Origin: Natrarchaeobaculum sulfurireducens
Lineage (GTDB): Archaea > Halobacteriota > Halobacteria > Halobacteriales > Natrialbaceae
Direction of reading: 5' to 3'
Length of the DNA stretch: 64,000 nt
Assembly: GCF_003430825.1 (NCBI RefSeq)
Contig: NZ_CP024047.1
Location: forward strand, 2,170,001 to 2,234,000
Shown here: positions 49,156 through 60,254 of the stretch, in pieces
Layout of the letters: the number at the start of each line of letters is the position of its first letter
Numbering within the stretch: position 1 is the stretch's first letter
Program-made: the position numbers and the translations under genes
Notes under the pieces: model-generated
The model's database searches: none
Told to the model about the DNA's origin: nothing
What the model saw: the letters and a program-made list of their open reading frames with translations, nothing else

Positions 49156-51259
49156 GGGCGACCACCCCCAGATTGTAAGCCGCGTGCATCAGTGTCGCAA
49201 GCACGAACGCGACCGCGTAGGTCGACTGGCTGTGGGCGGCCCCGAACGCGGCGACGACCGCCGTCACGACATGGAGGACGAGCGGGGCGAGAAACAGTGC
49301 GACGAGGACGAGTGGCTCGCTCGAGAGGGCGGGGCCGAACGCGGCGACGCCGACGGTTAGTTCCGGGAGCCCGACGAACTGGACGGCGTGAGTGACCTTC
49401 TCGCCGAGGAAGAAGCCGACGCCGGAGAGCACGCCGAGGGCGGCCGCCACGCGAAGTGAGGCGTCGAACCGCGAGCGGGCGAAGCCGGCGTAGACGTGGA
49501 TACTCTTGGCGAACTCCTCGATCGCCGCGGCGAGGACGAACACGACCGGGAGCGCGATCGCCTCGGGGACGGCAAAGAGCAACGCGACGACGAGCAACTG
49601 TGCCGCGAAGACGAACGGGATAAACAGCGCAGAGAGGACGAACGGGCTCGCGTAGGGGTGAACGCGACTCGAGATCGCGTCGATCTGACTGACGATGGCG
49701 TCGACGGCTTTCGACGGGATCGCCTTCTGTGCGAACATGTCCTCTTCGCGGTAGACGCCGATCCCCAGAAGCGCACAGACCGCCGCTCCGAAGTAGAGCG
49801 GGCCGGTCGAAAAGAGGTACTCGGCGAGGCGGACTGATTCTCCCTGGAGGTCCATCACGATCAGCGTCAGCGGCGAGATCAGCGCGATCGGCGTCACGTC
49901 CGTAAAGATCGCCGGGACGAACGCGTACGTCGTCAGGACGACGCTGATCGTGACGGTGACGAACGTGAGTTCCTTGAACGACCGGGCGAACATGGCCCCG
50001 GTGAACGTCGCGGCCAGAAAGGCGAGCGCGATCGGGATGGCCCCAGCGATCGAGAGGAGCCCGCCGCCGATCGCGAGTGCGATGGCAGTCGAGATCCCGA
50101 CGAGTCCGAGCAGATACGGGAGCGTCTTCCCGGCGACGATCTCGAGGCGGCCGGCGGGCGAGACCAACAGCAGCTCCCCCCGGCGCTTGATCCGTTCGTC
50201 CATGATCGTGCTGCCGTAGGCCTGAATCACGAAGTTCATCGGTACGACGAACAGGAACGCCAACACGAGCGACTGAAAGGGAAACGGCGGCGAGAGCGTC
50301 CCGGGCGTCGCAGGAGCTGTTTGCTCGGCCGCGTGTCCGCCTCCAACGTCCGGTACGGCAAGTTCGTCGTCCGCGCTGCCTACCCTGGCGTCGGCGCCAG
50401 CGGCGCCGTCAGGCTGTCGCTCACCGTCGTCTACTTCGTCATCGGCTCCGGGATCGCTATCGCCTGTCTCAAGCTCATTTTCGTCGTCCGCCTCGTCGTC
50501 AGCATCGGTACCGCGCTCTCTGTCGTCAGTCCTGGACTCAGCTCCGCCGTCCACCTCGTCGTCTCCGTTCTCGCCATCGTCTGTCCCGACTTCATCTTCG
50601 TCGTCCACCCCGTCGTCACCGGCTTCGGCTGCCGTCTCATCCGTCTCGGGCTCGAATCCCGTGGATTCGTCGCCGCCGTCGTCGACCGTCTCGTCGCCAG
50701 AGACGACGTCGCCGAGGTCGCGGTCCTGATACTCGAGCGTGACGAGCACGGGGTACGCCGCCGTTTCGTCGGTTTCGGCGGCCATTCGGCGCTCGTTGTA
50801 CGTTTCAACTGCACCTCGGAATGCGTCGTAGGCGGCTTCGCCGTTCGTCCCGACGTGGCCGATCTGGCCGTCGGCGATCACGACATCGACGTTCCCGTCC
50901 GCACCGCCGTCTTCCAAGGCGACGTCCGAGAGCGGGATCGGCCTGAAGGCGGTACTCTCTACGGCGACGTCGTGGTAGGGATCGCCCTCGTCGACGCCGA
51001 CGACGTAAATCTCGTCCTCGAGGGCGAGTCCCTCGTCGACGGCGGAGAAGCCGACGACGCCGGCGACGGCCACCATCGCGAGCACGAGAAGGATCGTCTT
51101 GCGGTCGACGGTCCCCATGCTCCGGGTGACCTCCCAGCGGGCGACCCGCACCGTCCGCGAGACGCGGCCACGGAGCCCGCCGGTTCCAGCCCCCGACCGC
51201 GGAACCGAGCCGCTGGAGTCGTCGGCTCGTTTCGCGTCGGCGTCGCGACCGTCGGTCAC
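49145..51259 (-). CDS. ABC-2 permease fused to a PrsW-like intramembrane protease
   Basis: A 704-residue protein. The N-terminal part is an exporter permease: helix 1 (TILLVLAMVAVAGVVGF), an extracellular domain with a very acidic low-complexity stretch (about 185-310), then helices including DERIKRRGELLLVSPAGRL, the ABC-2 loop. The last ~200 residues are a separate membrane domain with EEFAK (581-585), LVLHVV (H663) and LMHAAYN (H692), the metal-binding pattern of PrsW/CPBP-type proteases. The GTG start overlaps the ATPase stop. It may cleave a membrane protein linked to export (inference). Confidence 0.8.
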   Translation of the reverse strand: MTDGRDADAKRADDSSGSVPRSGAGTGGLRGRVSRTVRVARWEVTRSMGTVDRKTILLVLAMVAVAGVVGFSAVDEGLALEDEIYVVGVDEGDPYHDVAVESTAFRPIPLSDVALEDGGADGNVDVVIADGQIGHVGTNGEAAYDAFRGAVETYNERRMAAETDETAAYPVLVTLEYQDRDLGDVVSGDETVDDGGDESTGFEPETDETAAEAGDDGVDDEDEVGTDDGENGDDEVDGGAESRTDDRERGTDADDEADDENELETGDSDPGADDEVDDGERQPDGAAGADARVGSADDELAVPDVGGGHAAEQTAPATPGTLSPPFPFQSLVLAFLFVVPMNFVIQAYGSTIMDERIKRRGELLLVSPAGRLEIVAGKTLPYLLGLVGISTAIALAIGGGLLSIAGAIPIALAFLAATFTGAMFARSFKELTFVTVTISVVLTTYAFVPAIFTDVTPIALISPLTLIVMDLQGESVRLAEYLFSTGPLYFGAAVCALLGIGVYREEDMFAQKAIPSKAVDAIVSQIDAISSRVHPYASPFVLSALFIPFVFAAQLLVVALLFAVPEAIALPVVFVLAAAIEEFAKSIHVYAGFARSRFDASLRVAAALGVLSGVGFFLGEKVTHAVQFVGLPELTVGVAAFGPALSSEPLVLVALFLAPLVLHVVTAVVAAFGAAHSQSTYAVAFVLATLMHAAYNLGVVALVG

Positions 51260-52203
51260 GCCTCCGTCGCCTCCACCGACGACTCGCTCGCGATCTCGAG
51301 GAAGATCTCTTCGAGCGTCGGCGTCCTGGTCTGGATGTCGGTGATACGACCACCTTCGGCCTCGACGACCGCACGGATCGCCTCGACGGCGGCCATGTCG
51401 CCAACGACGTGTTCGATCTGTCCGTTCGTGCGATGGACCTCGAGGTCGTCGACCGTCGGGCCGTCAGCGTCGGCCGACGACGTACGAAGGCCGTCGCTCG
51501 CGTCGACTGTTGTGAAGACGCGGTACTCGGTACCGCCATGGGCCTCACGGATCGCCTCGATCGTCCCGTTGGCGACGATCCGGCCCTCGTTCATCACCGC
51601 GACACGGTCACAGATACTCTCGACGTGAAAGAGGTTGTGCGCACTGAAGACGATCGTCTTCCCCGTCTCGCTCAGTTCGCGGGTGAACTCGATGATGTAG
51701 TTCGTCGTTAGCGGGTCGAGTCCTGACGCTGGCTCGTCGAAGATGAGGACGTCGGGGTCGTTGACCAGCGCCCGCGTGATCGCGACCTTCCGTTTCATCC
51801 CCTTCGACATGTTCCCGATCCGTCGATCACGGTGCTCGAGGTCGAGTCGGTCGAGCGTCCGTTCGATCCGCTCGGTGGCGACCGACTGCGGGACGCCGTA
51901 GAGGTCGGCAAAAAACGCCAGATAACTCCGCGGCGTCATGTCCTCGTACAGCGGCGACTCCTCCGGGAGAAAGCCAAGCCGTCGCTGCATCGCCGGGTTG
52001 CCGGGTTCGAGGCCGGCGACGACGGCCGTTCCGCCGGTCGGCTCGATCAGTCCGGCAAGCATCTTCAACGTGGTCGTTTTCCCGGCTCCGTTCGGGCCAA
52101 CGACGCCGAAGACCTCGCCGCGTTCGATGGAGAACGTACTCCCTTCGACCGCCGCGAAGTCCCCGTACTCCTTTCGGAGGGCTTCGACTTCGACTATCGC
52201 CAT
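51256..52203 (-). CDS. ABC transporter ATPase
   Basis: ATP-binding subunit of the exporter, 315 residues. Walker [15 protein letters not shown], signature MSKGMKRKV (a variant of LSGGQ common in ABC-2 exporters), Walker [13 protein letters not shown] and switch SAHNLFHVE are intact. A C-terminal ~80-residue extension ([12 protein letters not shown] onward, ending [12 protein letters not shown]) is typical of the group. It is the first gene of the operon and overlaps the fused permease by GTGA. NatA/YhaQ-like exporters are the nearest relatives; the substrate is unknown. Confidence 0.9.
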
Positions 52204-52378
52204 TCGTTACTCGAGAGTGAGCACCACCCCCAGTAAAGTCTAGTGGCAGCCGAGGGTCTCGAAATCAAAGACGAACGCTCGACGGTACCGACTGAGAGTT
52301 CGTTTCGCCATCAGTCACTACGACAATCGGCGGTCGCGAGCGCAACATTCCATGTGCTCGACCACGTATCCATACTGG

Positions 52379-52795
52379 ATGACTCGTCTTCAGTGGACGT
52401 CGAGGCCGACGGGCCGACGACTCGAAGCGTCGCACGTGATCGCCGCGGCCCCCGACGACGCCTGGGAGGTCCTCGTCGACACGACTCGCTGGCCGACGTG
52501 GTCGCCGGTGATTTTCGGCGTCGACGCCACCGATCGGTACGTCCGTACCGGCACCAGTGGCCGCGTTCGTGCTCCCGGCGTCTGGCTTCCGTTTACCGTC
52601 ACCGATTGCCGGGAGCGATCGTGGACCTGGCGCGTTGCGGAACTGCCGGGTGCCACGCACCGAGTCGACGAACTCGGCACCGGCCGCTGTCGGGTCGTGT
52701 TCGAACTGCCACCGGCGAGCGTCGGCGCAGCGCCCGTCTGCCTCGAGGCGCTCGAGCGGATCGACGCCGTGCTCGAGGACAGCGAGTCGACCTGA
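52379..52795 (+). CDS. SRPBCC (polyketide-cyclase-like) protein
   Basis: A 138-residue protein with the START/Bet v1 helix-grip fold. ASHVIAAAPDDAWEVLVDTTRWPTWSP is the standard opening; FTVTDCRERSWTWRVAELPG and HRVDELGTGRCRVVFELP are conserved strands. It probably binds a hydrophobic ligand. ATG 52379 is chosen; an earlier ATG at 52352 is possible. It is followed by an HxlR regulator on the same strand. Confidence 0.8.
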   Translation: MTRLQWTSRPTGRRLEASHVIAAAPDDAWEVLVDTTRWPTWSPVIFGVDATDRYVRTGTSGRVRAPGVWLPFTVTDCRERSWTWRVAELPGATHRVDELGTGRCRVVFELPPASVGAAPVCLEALERIDAVLEDSEST

Positions 52796-52880
52796 CCGGT
52801 TTGCTCCGGCAACTATCGTCGTGTTAGCTGGTTCGATTCCGAACTTCTATCCCGGTGGAACGCCACGGTTCTGTTATCCA

Positions 52881-53225
52881 ATGTCCTCTCAAGAGCCCAA
52901 CGTCGAACCGCCGAACGCCTGTCCCGTCATCGAATCGCTCGAACAGATCGGCTCGCAGTGGCGACTGGCCGTCTTACACGAACTATTGACGGGCGAACAG
53001 CGATTCAACGAACTCAAACGGTCGACCGGCGCGAACGCGCGGACGCTCTCGCGCGTGCTCGACGACCTAGGCGAAACCGGCTTCGTCGAGCGTCGAATCG
53101 AGGAAGATGCGCCGATTGCGACCTACTACAGCCTGACGGAGAAAGGTGAGTCGCTCGAGCCGGTCTTCGACGAGATCGATTGCTGGGCCAGTTCCTGGCT
53201 CGACGGCGAGTTCGAACGTGAGTGA
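52881..53225 (+). CDS. HxlR-family winged-helix regulator
   Basis: A 114-residue MarR-like regulator. CPVIESLEQIGSQWRLAVLHELL opens the family fold; RFNELKRSTGANARTLSRVLDDL is the recognition region and VERRIEEDAPIATYYSLTEKG the wing. The single N-terminal cysteine at about 14 is conserved in redox- or aldehyde-sensing HxlR proteins. ATG 52881 gives MSSQEPN. It may control the neighbouring SRPBCC gene (inference). Confidence 0.9.
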   Translation: MSSQEPNVEPPNACPVIESLEQIGSQWRLAVLHELLTGEQRFNELKRSTGANARTLSRVLDDLGETGFVERRIEEDAPIATYYSLTEKGESLEPVFDEIDCWASSWLDGEFERE

Positions 53226-53258
53226 GCAGGAGCCGGTTACAGGCGGAGTAGCGCAATG

Positions 53259-53692
53259 CCACGGCCTTCAGGCCGTGGATACGCGCGTAAGCTTGATCAG
53301 GCTGTATTCCGTAGACGGCAGTACCGGAGTTCCCACGTTGAGAAACGCCGTCTTTGACGACACCACGGCTTCGCCGTGACTTCTCGCGTGGTAACAAATC
53401 CGACTGAACCAGTCCACGACGTACCGGCTTGGCCGACGCGAATCGTGGTACCGTGCGGGCTGAATACCCCGCCGTGGAGCGACGAGCGGTATTCGTCGCG
53501 TCGAAACGCCGACCGAGTGTCGGACGGAAGGCCCGTTTGGCCGGGCTAGACGCGCTGCAACGCACGTCCTTGGTCACAACTGGACGGCTACCATCGACGT
53601 GGGACGCGAAAGCGTACTTCGCCACCGAGGAAACGCGCAACCTTGAACTCCGCTTCGCGGATTCCCGCGTCTTCAGGCGCGGGAGGAGGTCA
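53259..53692 (+). mobile_element. IS200/IS605-like remnant bounded by hairpins (PATE-like)
   Basis: Left hairpin CCACGGCC-TTCA-GGCCGTGG (53259-53278) and right hairpin CCCGCGTC-TTCA-GGCGCGGG (53664-53683) share the same loop; the right one is followed by AGGAGGTCAA, the sequence that ends many haloarchaeal IS200/IS605 (IS1341-type) elements. The part from about 53430 resembles the end of tnpB with its 3' flank, which in these elements encodes the guide RNA. No transposase gene remains. The element fits the palindrome-associated, non-autonomous elements described in haloarchaea. Its right end supplies the stop codon of the next gene. Confidence 0.5.
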
Positions 53693-53908
53693 ATGCGTGT
53701 CGGACTTGGCCATCTCGAGGCTCGCAAAGAAGCCGAAGTAGGCGACGATTCCCGCGAGCATCAACATCCAGTAGGCGTACGTCGGTCCGTCGATAACCCG
53801 AAAGAGCACGTCGACCATCGTCACCCAGACGATCGCGAAGAGGAGGTCGACGAACAGTCCCCACTTTTCGGCCCGAACGCTCTCGATCCACTCGCGAGCG
53901 CTGCTCAT
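53690..53908 (-). CDS. small two-helix membrane protein
   Basis: A 72-residue protein. Two hydrophobic helices (LFVDLLFAIVWVTMVDVLF; YWMLMLAGIVAYFGFFASL) are joined by RVIDGPTYA; the N-terminus is amphipathic. It is a conserved type of small haloarchaeal membrane protein with no known role. ATG 53908. The last codons and TGA overlap the right end of the mobile element, so the original C-terminus may have been altered. Confidence 0.75.
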   Translation of the reverse strand: MSSAREWIESVRAEKWGLFVDLLFAIVWVTMVDVLFRVIDGPTYAYWMLMLAGIVAYFGFFASLEMAKSDTH

Positions 53909-54074
53909 GTACGGATCACCGTTCCGTACTCGACCCCAGTCATGGTTCGAGGTCGCACGGACAGGGAAAAAGCCTATCGGCGTCGTGCCGTCGGCCCCAC
54001 CGAATTCGCTCGAGCGACCGGAGACGCGCTGGAAAAGCGAAACCCCCTAACCCCACCCGCGACTCGACTCGAGC

Positions 54075-54626
54075 ATGCACGACGAACCCGAAGTCGCCGT
54101 CCTCAGACTCGGTCACCGGCCCGGACGCGACGAGCGGATGACGACGCACGTCGGGCTGACTGCGCGGGCGCTCGGTGCCGACCGCGTCTGGATCCCCGAC
54201 AACGCCGGCCAGTCGAAGGAGACGGTCGAGGACATCACCGACCGCTTCGGCGGCCCATTCTCCGTCGAACTCACCGACTCGCCGAAGGCGATCCTGCGCG
54301 ACTGGGACGGCCGGATCGTCCACCTCACGATGTACGGCGAGCGCATCCAGGACGTCGAAGACGAGATACACACGGCCCATCGGGACGGCGGTGAGCCAAT
54401 ACTGGTCGTCGTCGGCTCCGAGAAGGTCTCGTTCGACGTCTACGAGGAGGCCGACTGGAACGTCGGCGTCACCAACCAGCCCCACTCCGAAGTGGCTGGT
54501 CTCGCCGTCTTCCTAGACCGTCTGTTCGAGGGCCACGAACTCGAGCGCGAGTGGGCCGACGCCGACCGTCGCGTCGTCCCCATGGAGACGGGCAAACGCG
54601 TCGAGCCGGTCGAGGACGAAGGATAG
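54075..54626 (+). CDS. trm56: tRNA (cytidine(56)-2'-O)-methyltransferase aTrm56
   Basis: Archaeal SPOUT-class enzyme that methylates the ribose of C56 in the T-loop of tRNAs; 183 residues, normal length. VAVLRLGHRPGRDERMTTHVGL is the family start; ADRVWIPDN, VVVGSEKVSFDVYE and NVGVTNQPHSEVAGLAVFLDR form the knotted SAM-binding region. The acidic C-terminus is a salt adaptation. The downstream neighbour on the opposite strand is a decayed winged-helix gene, then TFE. Confidence 0.92.
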   Translation: MHDEPEVAVLRLGHRPGRDERMTTHVGLTARALGADRVWIPDNAGQSKETVEDITDRFGGPFSVELTDSPKAILRDWDGRIVHLTMYGERIQDVEDEIHTAHRDGGEPILVVVGSEKVSFDVYEEADWNVGVTNQPHSEVAGLAVFLDRLFEGHELEREWADADRRVVPMETGKRVEPVEDEG

Positions 54627-55060
54627 GACGGCTTCAGGAGGCGAAACGGCCGGCACAGTCGACCCCAGACCGTTCGAGCCGCAGCGCGTACCGTCGCCGT
54701 TGCGCCGAGTTCACGCTCGTCGAGGACGTAGCCATTTCCGACGCGCTCGATCGGTCCCGACTCGCCGTGGAACTCGAGCAACCGCGTGAAATCGTCCTCC
54801 GTGAGGCCCGTTCGGCCCTGAATTTCAGCGGCGGTCAGCGGCCGATCGGCCTCTCACAGCGTCTCGAGTAGCCAGCGATTGTGTTCGTCGACGAGAAACA
54901 CCCCCTCGTTCGAGAGGTCGTCTTCGTCCACTGCTCCGTCGTCGGGGGACGAGTTGTGCCATCTGTCGACGCCGTCGAGGGACGAGTTGTGCCACCTGTC
55001 GACGCCGGCGAGTCCCGGATCGACCTCGAGACCGGTCGCCCAGCAGTAGCGCAGCCGAAT
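54627..55060 (-). pseudogene. decayed winged-helix protein between trm56 and tfe
   Basis: On the minus strand the frame reads VFLVDEHNRWLLETL, then an in-frame TGA (54854-54856), then EADRPLTAAEIQGRTGLTEDD, LLEFHGESGPIERVGNGYVLDE and ELGATATVRAAARTVWGRL. One C-to-T change from CGA would create the stop. This is a normal winged-helix pattern. Further upstream the N-terminus (RLRYCWATGLEVDPGLAG) has no start codon in frame, and a 33-bp duplication is inserted, so more than one lesion is present. No stop precedes trm56, so the end is also unclear. Confidence 0.7.
54946..55011. repeat. 33-bp tandem repeat, two copies
   Basis: GGGACGAGTTGTGCCATCTG and GGGACGAGTTGTGCCACCTG begin two adjacent 33-bp units with two or three differences. 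In the pseudogene frame each encodes an 11-residue unit GVDRWHNSS plus two residues, so the duplication kept the frame. Confidence 0.75.
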
Positions 55061-55169
55061 CGCGACGCTGTTATCGAGCCATCGACATCGAGTAATTCTC
55101 GAGCACCGTCGTGGGCGTGCGCGAGCAACGAAGGGCTAGTTTTTCAGCAACCGGGGGCGGAGGGTGCGT

Positions 55170-55385
55170 ATGGCTTCAGGAGGTGCGCTGCCCGGGACGG
55201 CGATCGAGTGGTACATATTTGGCGTCGTACTCGTCGGACTCAACGTCATCGTGTTGCTCGTGACCGGCCACACGCTCTTTCAGTCGATCGCGATGGGACT
55301 GTTCTACGGCCTCGCGATGGCGCTCGTGGTCGTATTGGTCGTTGCCGTCTGGGAAACCGTCGTCGGTGACTCGAGCCAGGAGTGA
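55170..55385 (+). CDS. small two-helix membrane protein
   Basis: A 71-residue protein. Helices WYIFGVVLVGLNVIVLLV and IAMGLFYGLAMALVVVLVV are separated by TGHTLFQS. The function is unknown; it is a typical short haloarchaeal membrane protein. ATG 55170 is better than the GTG two codons earlier. It precedes the amphi-Trp gene on the same strand by 85 nt. Confidence 0.7.
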   Translation: MASGGALPGTAIEWYIFGVVLVGLNVIVLLVTGHTLFQSIAMGLFYGLAMALVVVLVVAVWETVVGDSSQE

Positions 55386-55470
55386 CTCGCTTCCCGTCGC
55401 AATGTTTCGCCCGGCCGAGAGCGGCCTGAGAGTTCGCCGCCAACGTATATCCGGCCAAGTAGTGCACTCT

Positions 55471-55728
55471 ATGGATATGGCAGAGACGACTGCTCACAGC
55501 GACGAAGTGACGCGAGAAGAAGCATCAGAGCTCCTTCAGGAACTGGCTCGAGAAGTCCACACCGAGGGTACGGCAGCCGTCCGAGTCGGAAACAAGGTGC
55601 TGACGCTGTCGCCGCCGTCGGCCGTCGAGTACGGCATCGAGGTCGAAGAACGGTCGCCGATGCTCGGCGGAGATCGCGAAACGATCACGGTGACTCTCGA
55701 GTGGGAGATCGACGAAACTGAGAGCTGA
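55471..55728 (+). CDS. amphi-Trp domain protein
   Basis: An 85-residue protein consisting of one amphi-Trp domain. EVTREEASELLQELAREV (amphipathic helix), then VRVGNKVLTLSPPSAVEYGIEVEERSP and ITVTLEWEI (ending with the marker tryptophan) follow the family pattern. Its function is unknown. ATG 55471 and ATG 55477 are both plausible; a TATA-like GTATAT at about 55445 favours the first. Confidence 0.85.
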   Translation: MDMAETTAHSDEVTREEASELLQELAREVHTEGTAAVRVGNKVLTLSPPSAVEYGIEVEERSPMLGGDRETITVTLEWEIDETES

Positions 55729-55743
55729 AGCGGGCGTTCGGTG

Positions 55744-56739
55744 TCAGGACATGCGATAGAAGCGAACGCCGTCGACGGACTCGGCCTGAACCCGCTGTCG
55801 GTCCTCGAGTGTCCCCAGTGCACCCAGCGTATCGAGAACCGGCGCGACGTACCGAAGCTCGCCGACGCGCGCTTTAGCGACCGATAGGGCCGTTGCCGGT
55901 TCGATCGACGCGAGGGCCCCGTGCGTCTCCTCGACCAGGTCGTCGAGGCGGGCTCTGGTTCGATCGAGGACGTGTTTGGGGTTGTCGAACACCGGTCCGT
56001 GGCCGGGATAGACACACGTTGCGGTCGTTCCCTCCAGACGCGCCATCGCCTCGTAGTAAGCGTCGACCGCCTCGTCTGCCTCGCGATCGAGCCCGACGTG
56101 AAACGCCACGGGACGAAACGGTGCAACGAGTACGTCACCCGAAAAGAGCGCCCGCGACCCCTCGAGCGCCGTCTCGAAACACAGGTGATCGATCTCGTGG
56201 CCCGGCGTCGGGATCGGCGTGATCTCCCGACCGCCGACGACGAGCGTCGACGTCGGGTCGATCGGCTGCGTGCGCGCTGGGTCGACCAGCCGTCGTTCCC
56301 GCCGGAACGACTCGAGGAGGTCGTCGACGACGGACGCCCGATCCGTCTCGGAATAGCCTGCCTCACGGGCCGTCGCGTCGATCCGCTCGCGAAGCGACTC
56401 GGGGTCGGCCCGAAGTCGCTCGAGCGCCGGGGCTGGCGCGTGGATCGTCGCACCCGCGTCCCGAAGCGTCGACACCTGCCCGACGTGGTCGCTATGAAGA
56501 TGCGTCAGGAGGACGTGAGCGATATCGCTCGGTTCGTATCCCAGGCGCTCGAGTCCCTCCCGGAGCACGGCTTCGGCCGCGGCGTCCGGTGCGCCGGCGT
56601 CGATCAGGATCGGTTCCGGCCCCTGGATGAGGTATGCCGCGACGTGTTTCGGTGGCCACGGCACGTCGAATTCGAGGCGATGGACCGTCGCGGGCTCGTC
56701 CTCGCGCCGGCCGAACTCGTCGGAATCGTCGAGAGCCAT
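55744..56739 (-). CDS. metallo-beta-lactamase-fold hydrolase
   Basis: A 331-residue MBL hydrolase. Zinc ligands are in LTHLHSDHVG, PTPGHEIDHLCF and LFSGDVL, and PGHGPVFDN gives the last histidine. The helical insertion and C-terminal winged-helix-like part (LDTLGALGTLEDRQRVQAE) resemble lactonase/glyoxalase-II-like proteins related to LACTB2. Substrate unknown. The frame extends two codons to a GTG at 56745; I prefer ATG 56739. It is divergent from tfe. Confidence 0.88.
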   Translation of the reverse strand: MALDDSDEFGRREDEPATVHRLEFDVPWPPKHVAAYLIQGPEPILIDAGAPDAAAEAVLREGLERLGYEPSDIAHVLLTHLHSDHVGQVSTLRDAGATIHAPAPALERLRADPESLRERIDATAREAGYSETDRASVVDDLLESFRRERRLVDPARTQPIDPTSTLVVGGREITPIPTPGHEIDHLCFETALEGSRALFSGDVLVAPFRPVAFHVGLDREADEAVDAYYEAMARLEGTTATCVYPGHGPVFDNPKHVLDRTRARLDDLVEETHGALASIEPATALSVAKARVGELRYVAPVLDTLGALGTLEDRQRVQAESVDGVRFYRMS

Positions 56740-56865
56740 CGTCACCTATACGACGGGCGACGGCCCTGAATGTTACTCTCCGTCGATGTCCGGTGGGTGT
56801 CAAAGCCCAGCGATCGCGGCGAGGGCTCAAAAGACTTAATGTCGGCATGGCGTTACGGATACGTA

Positions 56866-57390
56866 ATGGCTTTTGAGGACCTGCTCGAGGATCCGGTTAT
56901 CCAGAAGTACTTACACGAGCTGGTCGGTCCCAAAGGGATGCCCGTCGCGGCAGCGCCGCCTGACGGGGAAGTGACCGACGAGGAGCTCGCGGAGGATCTG
57001 GATCTCGAGTTGAACGACGTGCGGCGGGCGCTGTTTATCCTGTACGAGAACGACCTCGCCAGCTATCGACGGCTGCGCGATGAGGACTCGGGCTGGCTGA
57101 CCTACCTCTGGACGTTCGAGTACGGGAACATCCCGGAGAATCTCGAATCGGAGATGTACCGCCTCCACGAGGCGCTCGAGGAACGCGAAACGTACGAGCG
57201 TAACCACGAGTTCTACCTCTGTGAGATCTGCTCGATCCGCTTCGAGTTCGGCGAGGCGATGGACTTCGGTTTCGAGTGTCCCGAGTGTGGCTCGCCACTC
57301 GACTCGATGGACAACCAGCGGCTGGTCAACGCGATGCACGAGCGAATCGACGCGCTCGAAGACGAACTCAACGTCGACGCGGACGCCTGA
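56866..57390 (+). CDS. tfe: transcription factor TFE (TFIIE-alpha homologue)
   Basis: Stabilises the open promoter complex during archaeal transcription initiation; 174 residues, usual size. The winged helix (about 5-90: EDPVIQKYLHELVG, EELAEDLDLELNDVRRALFILYEN) is followed by a coiled segment and a zinc ribbon: CEIC-SIRFEFGEAMDFGFE-CPEC (about 121-145). ATG 56866 with a box AGACTTAATG about 26 bp upstream fits a leaderless message. It overlaps the DUF2110 gene by one base. Confidence 0.95.
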   Translation: MAFEDLLEDPVIQKYLHELVGPKGMPVAAAPPDGEVTDEELAEDLDLELNDVRRALFILYENDLASYRRLRDEDSGWLTYLWTFEYGNIPENLESEMYRLHEALEERETYERNHEFYLCEICSIRFEFGEAMDFGFECPECGSPLDSMDNQRLVNAMHERIDALEDELNVDADA

Positions 57391-58064
57391 TGGTCGTACT
57401 CGCAACGAAACTGTACGTCGAGGGCGACGCCCGACAACGGTCGACCGACTCCCTTCGGTCGCTGATCGGCAACGAGATCGGCGACCTCGAGGTCTCGTTC
57501 GACCTCTCGATTCGCGACGATGACTTCCCACGTGTCGACCTCGAGGGCGAGGACGCCATCGTCGCAGACAACGTCCTTGGTGAGGAGTTCGGCGAGATCA
57601 CAGACGAGTTCGAGCCCGGCGAAACGTACGTCGGGACGCTCGATTCGTGGGACGAAGACGGATTCGTCCTCGACGCCGGCCAGCCCGTTCGGATCCCAGC
57701 AGCCGAACTCGGTCTGGGGCCGGGTTCGCCCGAACAGATCCGCGAGCGCTACGGCCTCGTCCAGCACCTACCGCTTCGATTCGTCTACGGCGACGATGAC
57801 ACGCCCTCACGGCTTGCGGACGAAGAACGCGACCGCCTCTACGACTGGACGCGCGGCGACGGTCGACTCAACGTCAACAGCGCGACGCGGGCGGAGGTCC
57901 GCGCAACGCTCAACCGGGCTGGCCACGCCCAGGATTACGTCACCGTCGAACGACTCGGACTGCTCGAACAGAGCGTGATCTGCACCGAGGATACCGACCC
58001 TCCGGGACTGCTCGCCAGCGTCGGTGAGTACCTCCCGGCGGAACTGCGCTGTGTCGTTCCCTGA
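57390..58064 (+). CDS. DUF2110 family protein
   Basis: A 224-residue archaeal protein of unknown function that often accompanies tfe. TKLYVEGDARQRSTDSLRSLI and the tail QSVICTEDTDPPGLLASVGEYLP are family motifs; the middle DEFEPGETYVGTLDSWDEDGFVLDAG looks like an S1/OB-type strand pattern, which could bind RNA (inference). The ATG shares its A with the tfe stop, so the two are co-translated. Confidence 0.88.
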   Translation: MVVLATKLYVEGDARQRSTDSLRSLIGNEIGDLEVSFDLSIRDDDFPRVDLEGEDAIVADNVLGEEFGEITDEFEPGETYVGTLDSWDEDGFVLDAGQPVRIPAAELGLGPGSPEQIRERYGLVQHLPLRFVYGDDDTPSRLADEERDRLYDWTRGDGRLNVNSATRAEVRATLNRAGHAQDYVTVERLGLLEQSVICTEDTDPPGLLASVGEYLPAELRCVVP

Positions 58065-58065
58065 T

Positions 58066-58842
58066 ATGAACCGACGGCTCGTCCTCGCGTCGATCGCGGT
58101 CGTCCTCCTGATCGGCCTAGCCGGTTGCTCGATGATCTTCGGCGGCATCTCCGATGACGAACTCGACCGCGACCAGGAGTACGACGACCTCAGAGAGACT
58201 GACGAGGACGTCGTCATCGACATCGAGGGAAGTGGCATTATCAGCAACGGTGAGTTCCGTGCGGTTTACGACCTGAACGAGACCGACGAGCTATCGCTGT
58301 ATCGCTCGAATATCTACCGCGACGAGGCGCTCGACATCCACAGCGTCCGTTACTGGTATCCGAACGGGACCGAAGTAACCGGCTCGGACCTCGACGTCGA
58401 CCAGAGCCGCTCGAGCACCGAGGTTCGCGTCCCCGACGGGAACGGAACGCTTGCGTTCACTGGTAACGCAGGAAGTCGGACGTTCCAGCTACCGGCGTAC
58501 ACTCACGGGTCCTACGAGGTCACGCTCCCGGACGAACACCGAACGTCGAACTTCCTGTTCGGCAACGTCAACCCGGGCGGATACGACCGCGAGGTCGTCG
58601 ATGACCGAGAACGGTTGACGTGGGAAAACGTCGACAGCACGGTCTCGTTACGGTACTACCAGACAAGGGATATTCCGGTGTTCGTTGGACTGGTCGGCAT
58701 CGTTTCGGTACTCGGCGGAGCCGGAATCGCCTACTACTACCGGCAGGTCAAGCGCCTGCGCGAACAGCGCGAGGAGATGGGGCTCGACGTCGACCTCGAG
58801 GACGACGACTCCGACCGTGGCCCGCCGCCAGGTCTCAAGTGA
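58066..58842 (+). CDS. DUF5803-like membrane-anchored lipoprotein
   Basis: A 258-residue exported protein. The signal sequence ends with lipobox GLAGC (cysteine at about 21). A beta-rich extracellular domain (about 45-190, with RAVYDLNETDELSLYRSNIY and RTFQLPAYTHGSYEVTLPD) is followed by one C-terminal helix (PVFVGLVGIVSVLGGAGIAYYY) and an acidic tail. Both an N-terminal lipid and a C-terminal helix anchor it, which is uncommon. It follows the DUF2110 gene by 1 nt, so tfe, DUF2110 and this gene form an operon. Confidence 0.8.
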   Translation: MNRRLVLASIAVVLLIGLAGCSMIFGGISDDELDRDQEYDDLRETDEDVVIDIEGSGIISNGEFRAVYDLNETDELSLYRSNIYRDEALDIHSVRYWYPNGTEVTGSDLDVDQSRSSTEVRVPDGNGTLAFTGNAGSRTFQLPAYTHGSYEVTLPDEHRTSNFLFGNVNPGGYDREVVDDRERLTWENVDSTVSLRYYQTRDIPVFVGLVGIVSVLGGAGIAYYYRQVKRLREQREEMGLDVDLEDDDSDRGPPPGLK

Positions 58843-58972
58843 GTGCGACGGGGCGCCGTCGCGAACACGTCTTCCGTTCGTATTGCTAACGACGAGCCGA
58901 AATCGGTCGGACGTCGGGACTGTCCTCGGAGTCAACGTTTTATCGCTGGACTGAGAGTGAAACACACGAACG

Positions 58973-59641
58973 ATGGCACCGGATCTCCCCGAGAAACTCC
59001 TCGGTATCGACATCGACCCCGTCGAGGACCAACGCAGGCGCTCTCAATCGGACAGCGACGAGTCCGAAGCGCACGTCCGCGTCGTCCTGTTTGGCGTCGG
59101 CGAACACCGTCTCGCGGTTCCCGTCGACGACGTGATCTCGATCACCGACGTGCCGGACGATCTCACGTGGGTCCCGCGGACGCCGGACGCAATCGACGGC
59201 GTCACCGACCTCCGGGGAGAGGTCACGGCCGTCCTCGACCCGACGGTCTACTTCCCGGTCGCCGAGGACCGAACCGGACGTGAACAGCTGCTCGTCTTCG
59301 ACTCCTCGGACGACGAACAGTCCGCGGCGCTCCGGGTCGACGACGTCCTCACGGTCGAGGCCGTCCCCGAGAGTAACGTCCTCGAGTCCGTCGACGATGC
59401 CGACGACCCGCTCTCTGGAGAGGCGCTCGAGCACCCGCTCGTGACCGCACTCGTCGAACGAACACGCCAAACGCGACGGAGCCCCGACGCCGTCCCCTCG
59501 ACGGCGACCGTATCGGGAGCGATCGACGACTCGGAGCTGGCCGACGAAGTGGCCGAAGACGTACAGGTCGTCGAATTCGTTCCGCTCGTCGACATCGACG
59601 GGATGCTCGCCGCGTCCAGCCACCGCGTTTCGAGTCGGTGA
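58973..59641 (+). CDS. cheW: chemotaxis adaptor CheW
   Basis: A 222-residue CheW that couples transducers to CheA. VRVVLFGVGEHRLAVPVDDV opens the SH3-like fold; PRTPDAIDGVTDLRGEVTAVLD is the central motif. It is longer than typical CheW (about 150), with an inserted acidic stretch (about 125-190) and an acidic N-terminus. CGTTTTATC at about 58936-58944 is a likely TATA region. It is followed by cheY, cheB and cheA on the same strand, with a 250-bp gap before cheY. Confidence 0.88.
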   Translation: MAPDLPEKLLGIDIDPVEDQRRRSQSDSDESEAHVRVVLFGVGEHRLAVPVDDVISITDVPDDLTWVPRTPDAIDGVTDLRGEVTAVLDPTVYFPVAEDRTGREQLLVFDSSDDEQSAALRVDDVLTVEAVPESNVLESVDDADDPLSGEALEHPLVTALVERTRQTRRSPDAVPSTATVSGAIDDSELADEVAEDVQVVEFVPLVDIDGMLAASSHRVSSR

Positions 59642-59816
59642 CGACTTGGTACCGCCCGACCGCGGTGGTCCGGCATTCTCTGACAACTGCCTAACAGGAC
59701 CGGATGATAGACGCTGGCGGAGCGCCCCATCGCGACCACTGCGCTCGAGGCAGAATCTCGAGTTGAGCGGAACGCTACCCCGCGGTTTGGGATGTCGTGT
59801 GACTCCGCTCGAACGG

Positions 59817-59838
59817 CGGTTATCACGATTGATAACCG
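59817..59838 (+). promoter_or_regulatory. inverted repeat upstream of cheY
   Basis: Perfect arms CGGTTATCA and TGATAACCG around a 4-nt CGAT, 54-75 bp before the cheY ATG. A CATTTATGG box follows. It is a strong candidate operator for the cheY-cheB-cheA operon. Confidence 0.5.
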
Positions 59839-59891
59839 AGAGACAGCATTTATGGTAACGGTTTCGGTACTATCGGCCGGTGTACTACTGA

Positions 59892-60254
59892 ATGTCGACA
59901 GGGGTTCTCATCGTGGACGACTCTCATTTTATGCGGAACTTGCTGCGCCAAATCGTAGAGCAGGATCACCGCATCGTCGGAGAGGCGACCAACGGCGCCG
60001 AGGCAGTCAAGTTGTACAAAGAGCACGATCCCGACGTCGTCATGATGGACATCGTGATGCCGAAGTGTAACGGGATCAAGGCGACCGCCGCGATCAAGAA
60101 GATCGACCCTGACGCTCGCGTCATCATGTGTACGAGCGTCGGTCAGCGCGAGAAAATGAAACTCGCGGTCAAGGCCGGCGCCGATGGCTACGTGACGAAG
60201 CCCTTCGAAGAGCCGAGCGTCAGAAAGGCCCTCACGGACGTCGCTGCGGTATGA
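59892..60254 (+). CDS. cheY: chemotaxis response regulator CheY
   Basis: A 120-residue single receiver domain that carries the signal from CheA to the archaellum switch. All functional residues are present: acid pair D9 and D10, phosphoacceptor D53 (MMDIVMP), T81, and K103 (VTKPF). It opens MSTGVLIVDDSHFMRNLL, the archaeal CheY start. Its stop overlaps the cheB start (ATGA). Confidence 0.95.
   Translation: MSTGVLIVDDSHFMRNLLRQIVEQDHRIVGEATNGAEAVKLYKEHDPDVVMMDIVMPKCNGIKATAAIKKIDPDARVIMCTSVGQREKMKLAVKAGADGYVTKPFEEPSVRKALTDVAAV

Follow-up and report, generated by a model that had tools for sequence, protein, structure and literature searches.

The locus and the interrupted frame

The window analyzed here is a stretch of 64,000 nucleotides from Natrarchaeobaculum sulfurireducens (contig NZ_CP024047.1), and all positions are counted from its first letter. 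An intact trm56 gene, encoding tRNA (cytidine(56)-2'-O)-methyltransferase, lies on the plus strand at 54075–54626 (Pfam Trm56, 159.3 bits; NCBIfam NF003048, 287.8 bits). Facing it on the minus strand, 54626–54982 holds the remnant of the C-terminal half of a winged-helix gene, corresponding to positions 101–220 of a 221-position profile and delimited with that profile and by tblastn with 29 intact orthologs. Further along, the plus strand carries a small ORF (55164–55385), hydrophobic by sequence, which is the next conserved gene after trm56 in the congeners G001 and G002; an amphi-Trp protein recognized by Pfam and NCBIfam models within ORF 55342–55728; and tfe (56770–57390), encoding the alpha subunit of transcription factor E, which scored over the Pfam cut-off and just under those of two NCBIfam equivalog models. 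ORF 55744–56745 on the minus strand presumably encodes a metallo-beta-lactamase, judging from its motifs. Because three ORFs separate the remnant from tfe, its neighbor is trm56 and not tfe. No Rfam element was matched in 50000–60000. A 12-bp direct repeat, GGCTTCAGGAGG, flanks the remnant on each side (54630–54641 and 55172–55183); these are its only two copies in the window, and none of 100 shuffled sequences had two, odds that are post hoc because the repeat was first seen by eye. Deletion between these repeats was considered as the route of loss in G002 and rejected by eye, as G002 retains the intergenic stretch before the second copy.

The initial annotation had described two peptides separated by a TGA, and this was exact. 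On the minus strand, VDEHNRWLLETL is followed by TGA (54856–54854) and then by EADRPLTAAEIQGRTGL, all in a single frame that matches intact proteins on both sides. The translation on either side of the TGA shares up to 67% identity with intact family proteins (best E value 6.2e-52, own genome excluded), and a profile built from 18 proteins of named genomes matched 54982–54626 at an E value of 3.8e-49 with the single TGA within. As these protein and profile matches span the TGA, the frame is beyond chance, and homology to the intact gene in relatives is clear. The codon replaced by TGA encodes Arg in 27 of the 29 intact copies. In an AlphaFold2 model of the intact protein from Natronorubrum texcoconense (L041), computed with an 18-row alignment, this column corresponds to residue 145, as counted from invariant alignment columns, near the end of the predicted first helix of the winged-helix domain (127–146). 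The linker region contains a 33-bp unit in 2.2 tandem copies with 92% matches (54940–55012, minus strand). This duplication is in frame, giving VDRWHNSS twice, and the ortholog alignment does not clearly place the extra copy.

The intact gene in relatives

At an E value of 0.01, the remnant translation matched 66 of 125 genomes of the taxonomic family, and 29 other loci (L005–L033) were fetched from these matches. All 29 have an open frame over the match. Comparison of this interval in relatives, proposed earlier as a check, revealed an open gene tail-to-tail with trm56 at 27 of them; in L020 and L033, trm56 was outside the stretch examined. The remnant has the same genomic place and orientation as this intact gene. 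The ortholog products comprise 217–224 residues in 27 cases and 234 in two, lengths that are partly by construction because the start rule favored 220 residues; the rule picked an internal ATG in L011 and L013. The profile matched 71 of the 125 genomes at an E value of 1e-6. In 46 of the 125, a match lay no more than 2.5 kb from trm56 and in convergent orientation, a count that includes the present remnant, another remnant in G055 and an ORF in G085 that holds the membrane half only. Five more genomes (G012, G013, G089, G098 and G120) have a match within 12 kb of trm56 only, and 20 have one only elsewhere, not near trm56. Among named loci, 15 of 41 have a profile match in the stretch examined.

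Outside the family, the profile gave no match at four haloarchaeal loci covering trm56 and up to 4 kb on either side (L073–L076, from a Halobium, a Halobacteriales MAG, a Haloarculaceae genome and a Halorubrum), nor at two Bathyarchaeota loci. Given the 46 of 125 genomes within the family and the lack of matches at L073–L076, the earlier statement that a winged-helix gene occupies this place in other haloarchaea holds, as far as examined, for part of one family and not for haloarchaea in general. In four loci (L010, L014, L016 and L020), another copy of the gene, more divergent than the first, lies between that first one and trm56; in L014 (G026), this additional copy is split across two frames. 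The ORF in G085 (L104:606–932) is 108 residues long and convergent with trm56, and is the mirror image of the present remnant. The trm56 query itself matched residues 1–107 only in G012 (C1:877813–878133) and G013 (C3:1863473–1863793), unlike in the other 123 of 125 genomes.

The intact protein of ~220 residues begins with four hydrophobic helices, which an acidic linker joins to a winged helix at the C terminus. In the L041 model, helices at 15–30, 35–57, 64–84 and 90–111 are followed by a low-confidence linker and a winged-helix pattern at 127–189; the ten-residue mean pLDDT was 82–95 over 131–190, with an overall pLDDT of 75.9 and pTM of 0.46. Judged from the sequence, the first four helices would span the membrane, and we infer for the intact protein a role as a regulator that binds DNA and is anchored in the membrane. 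Six of the 18 profile members matched PF25213 (HVO_A0261_N) at an E value of 0.01 or better (best 1.1e-6), three matched HTH_IclR and single members matched other HTH models, while the NCBIfam scan gave one weak match, for one member, to an unrelated name. No model spanning the whole protein was found among the matches of the 18 members scanned. Compared with solved structures, the C-terminal part of the profile weakly matched NiaR (7cv0, E value 0.0036) and an ArsR-type repressor (1y0u, E value 0.0041), consistent with a winged helix.

Lesions beyond the internal stop

In this genome, the match is confined to profile positions 101–220, and some 100 residues at the N-terminal end are missing. 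The place expected for the membrane half and start codon is 54983–55163 (minus strand), where similarity to orthologs is not clear: neither was detectable by tblastn with the 29 intact proteins, with a DNA profile or in a shuffle test. A doubtful 13-residue match, ATGLEVDPGLAGV, extends the remnant to 55039 in some tblastn alignments only, and the match to a DNA profile built with ortholog upstream regions stops at the linker. The shuffle and promoter tests used 27 orthologs, L011 and L013 having been dropped because the start rule chose an internal start. Similarity of 55016–55163 to the ortholog 5' regions was marginal, as the score summed over the 27 orthologs was reached by 16 of 200 shuffles, and that against the two best single orthologs by only 4 of 200. 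Faint remains of the 5' half are therefore possible, while a readable 5' half is absent. The native stop is also lost, and the frame continues for 61 codons, antisense into trm56, to the next stop at 54442–54440 (run-on 54440–54625, minus strand, within ORF 54440–54781). A CGATA..TTA-type motif that precedes the ATG by 38–40 nt in 20 of the 27 orthologs was absent from 55300–54932 of the minus strand; this test of promoter loss is weak and was not relied on, because the pattern was written post hoc and 7 of the 27 open orthologs also do not have the motif.

The gene is thus disabled by an in-frame stop, by loss of the start with the 5' half and by loss of the native stop. That a conserved regulator gene has been lost here, as first suggested, was borne out, since what is left is a C-terminal half without start, native stop or membrane half. 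The single nonsense base on which the initial annotation had let the case depend does not decide it: the TGA is only one lesion among several, so the loss would stand even if corrected reads showed a sense codon. For the same reason, we consider it very improbable that the gene is otherwise alive and the TGA an error of sequencing or assembly. The difference is of one base, as such an error would be, but that base has no bearing on the missing 5' half, start and stop, and the congeners have no profile match.

Were the TGA read through to give a shortened soluble winged-helix protein, this could also explain why the protein sequence is conserved before and after the TGA and why the linker changes stay in frame. 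Between the upstream stop and the TGA, however, the only in-frame ATG, GTG or TTG codons are GTG 54931 and GTG 54901, lying 25 and 15 codons before the TGA. A read-through product would have no conventional start, no membrane half and no natural end; with the native stop gone, it would carry 61 extra residues. In a review (PMC8211752), the cases of stop-codon recoding demonstrated in Archaea are those of selenocysteine and pyrrolysine. The best SelB match in the genome reached 171.7 bits against a cut-off of 242.25, and the four tRNA-Sec matches were all under the gathering score (best 41.3 versus 47) and were called tRNA-Arg, tRNA-Arg, tRNA-His and tRNA-Leu by ARAGORN. Selenocysteine read-through was rejected on the sub-cut-off SelB and the ordinary tRNAs at the tRNA-Sec matches. 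With neither selenocysteine machinery (SelB and tRNA-Sec) over the cut-offs in the genome nor a usable start and a frame to the native stop at the locus, the earlier idea that the stop is read through gained no support, and we regard read-through as very unlikely.

The frame after the TGA is open (ORF 54440–54781), as would suit a translation restart that gives a working fragment. The first start codon past the TGA, TTG 54781, is nevertheless located within helix three of the winged-helix domain according to the alignment and model, so that a restart fragment would lack the helix-turn-helix; a working product by this route is scarcely credible.

Age of the inactivation and recurrence of loss

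At 32 alignment columns, at least 90% of the intact copies agree. The remnant deviates from these at the TGA column alone, and intact copies deviate at 0–4 of them. Over 96 ungapped columns with the TGA skipped, pN/pS of the remnant against ten orthologs was 0.29–0.43, and the means among those orthologs were 0.30–0.38. Relaxed selection on the remaining codons was not found in this comparison. The phylogenetic tree joined the remnant, with weak support (81/0), to L011 and L013, within a 13-row group at 99/98, on a branch of 0.29 that was not flagged as long, and the linker changes preserve the frame. Except at the TGA, conservation of the winged-helix part matches that of intact genes, so the inactivation looks recent. 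This conservation fits a recent death of the gene, but also a domain under selection, and it is the only finding on which a reading with a living domain could draw; the unrelaxed codons speak against an old pseudogene, and relaxed selection is not defining for a recent one. A domain under selection would be accounted for if, after loss of the membrane half, the winged helix had been useful until very recently, or were still useful, as a small soluble regulator made from GTG 54931 with partial bypass of the TGA. We hold this to be very unlikely; if true, the existence of a winged-helix-only form here and of a membrane-only one in G085 would demonstrate that each half can function without the other.

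Our preferred reading, at a probability of about 0.92, is that the remnant is a recently inactivated, ordinary pseudogene. Loss of the gene at this place has occurred more than once, and the remnant is not a sign of unusual protein synthesis. None of the three congeners (G001, G002 and G003) gave a profile match; the assemblies of G002 (77%) and G003 (55%) are incomplete, although both contain trm56 and its 3' flank. The distance from trm56 to the next conserved gene, between aligned ends, is 143 bp in G001 and 88 bp in G002, and other sequence follows trm56 in G003. Of the four genomes examined in the genus, one thus has the gene in broken form, and the profile did not find it in the other three. 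A search for a copy elsewhere in the own genome gave nothing better than an E value of 0.008. Flagged stops in other family members were inspected at twelve fetched places. Nine end at their own C-terminal stop; of the other three, L102 looks like a chance match, L094 has no matching frame upstream and L095 is the second remnant.

The course of events may have been as follows. The intact regulator would no longer have been needed in this genus, and a deletion would have removed the 5' half; the TGA, the stop loss and the linker duplication may have arisen before or after that deletion. In the congeners, the place would already have been cleared of the gene. The remnant probably gives no working product. 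The locus is a clean case of a gene loss seen at an intermediate stage, with the gene open in other genera, reduced to a remnant in this genome, unmatched in the three congeners examined and independently reduced to a remnant in another genus. It also draws attention to winged-helix proteins of a little-described family, which are probably membrane anchored.

Among described domains, the N-terminal domain of HVO_A0261 (PF25213) offers a comparison. Its cut-off is 35 bits, far above the scores of the remnant (12.8) and of two relatives (12.7 and 16.5); the matched stretch excludes the membrane half of the family. The independent remnant of G055, in another genus (g15), lies beside trm56 at L103 219–560 and 1348–1518, where its fragments match profile positions 7–113 (with a TAA) and 159–219 and are separated by 787 bp, within which lies a 122-residue ORF. 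Its fragments belong to the same family and stand at the same place beside trm56, but both halves survive there as fragments, whereas here only the C-terminal half does. Another comparison is with the intact trm56-adjacent four-helix/winged-helix family itself (for example, N. texcoconense L041:4562–5227 and Haloterrigena salina L048:5312–5983). Whereas those members have the membrane half, start and stop, the present remnant is without all three and carries the TGA in addition; in place, orientation and the sequence of the linker and winged helix, it is like them.
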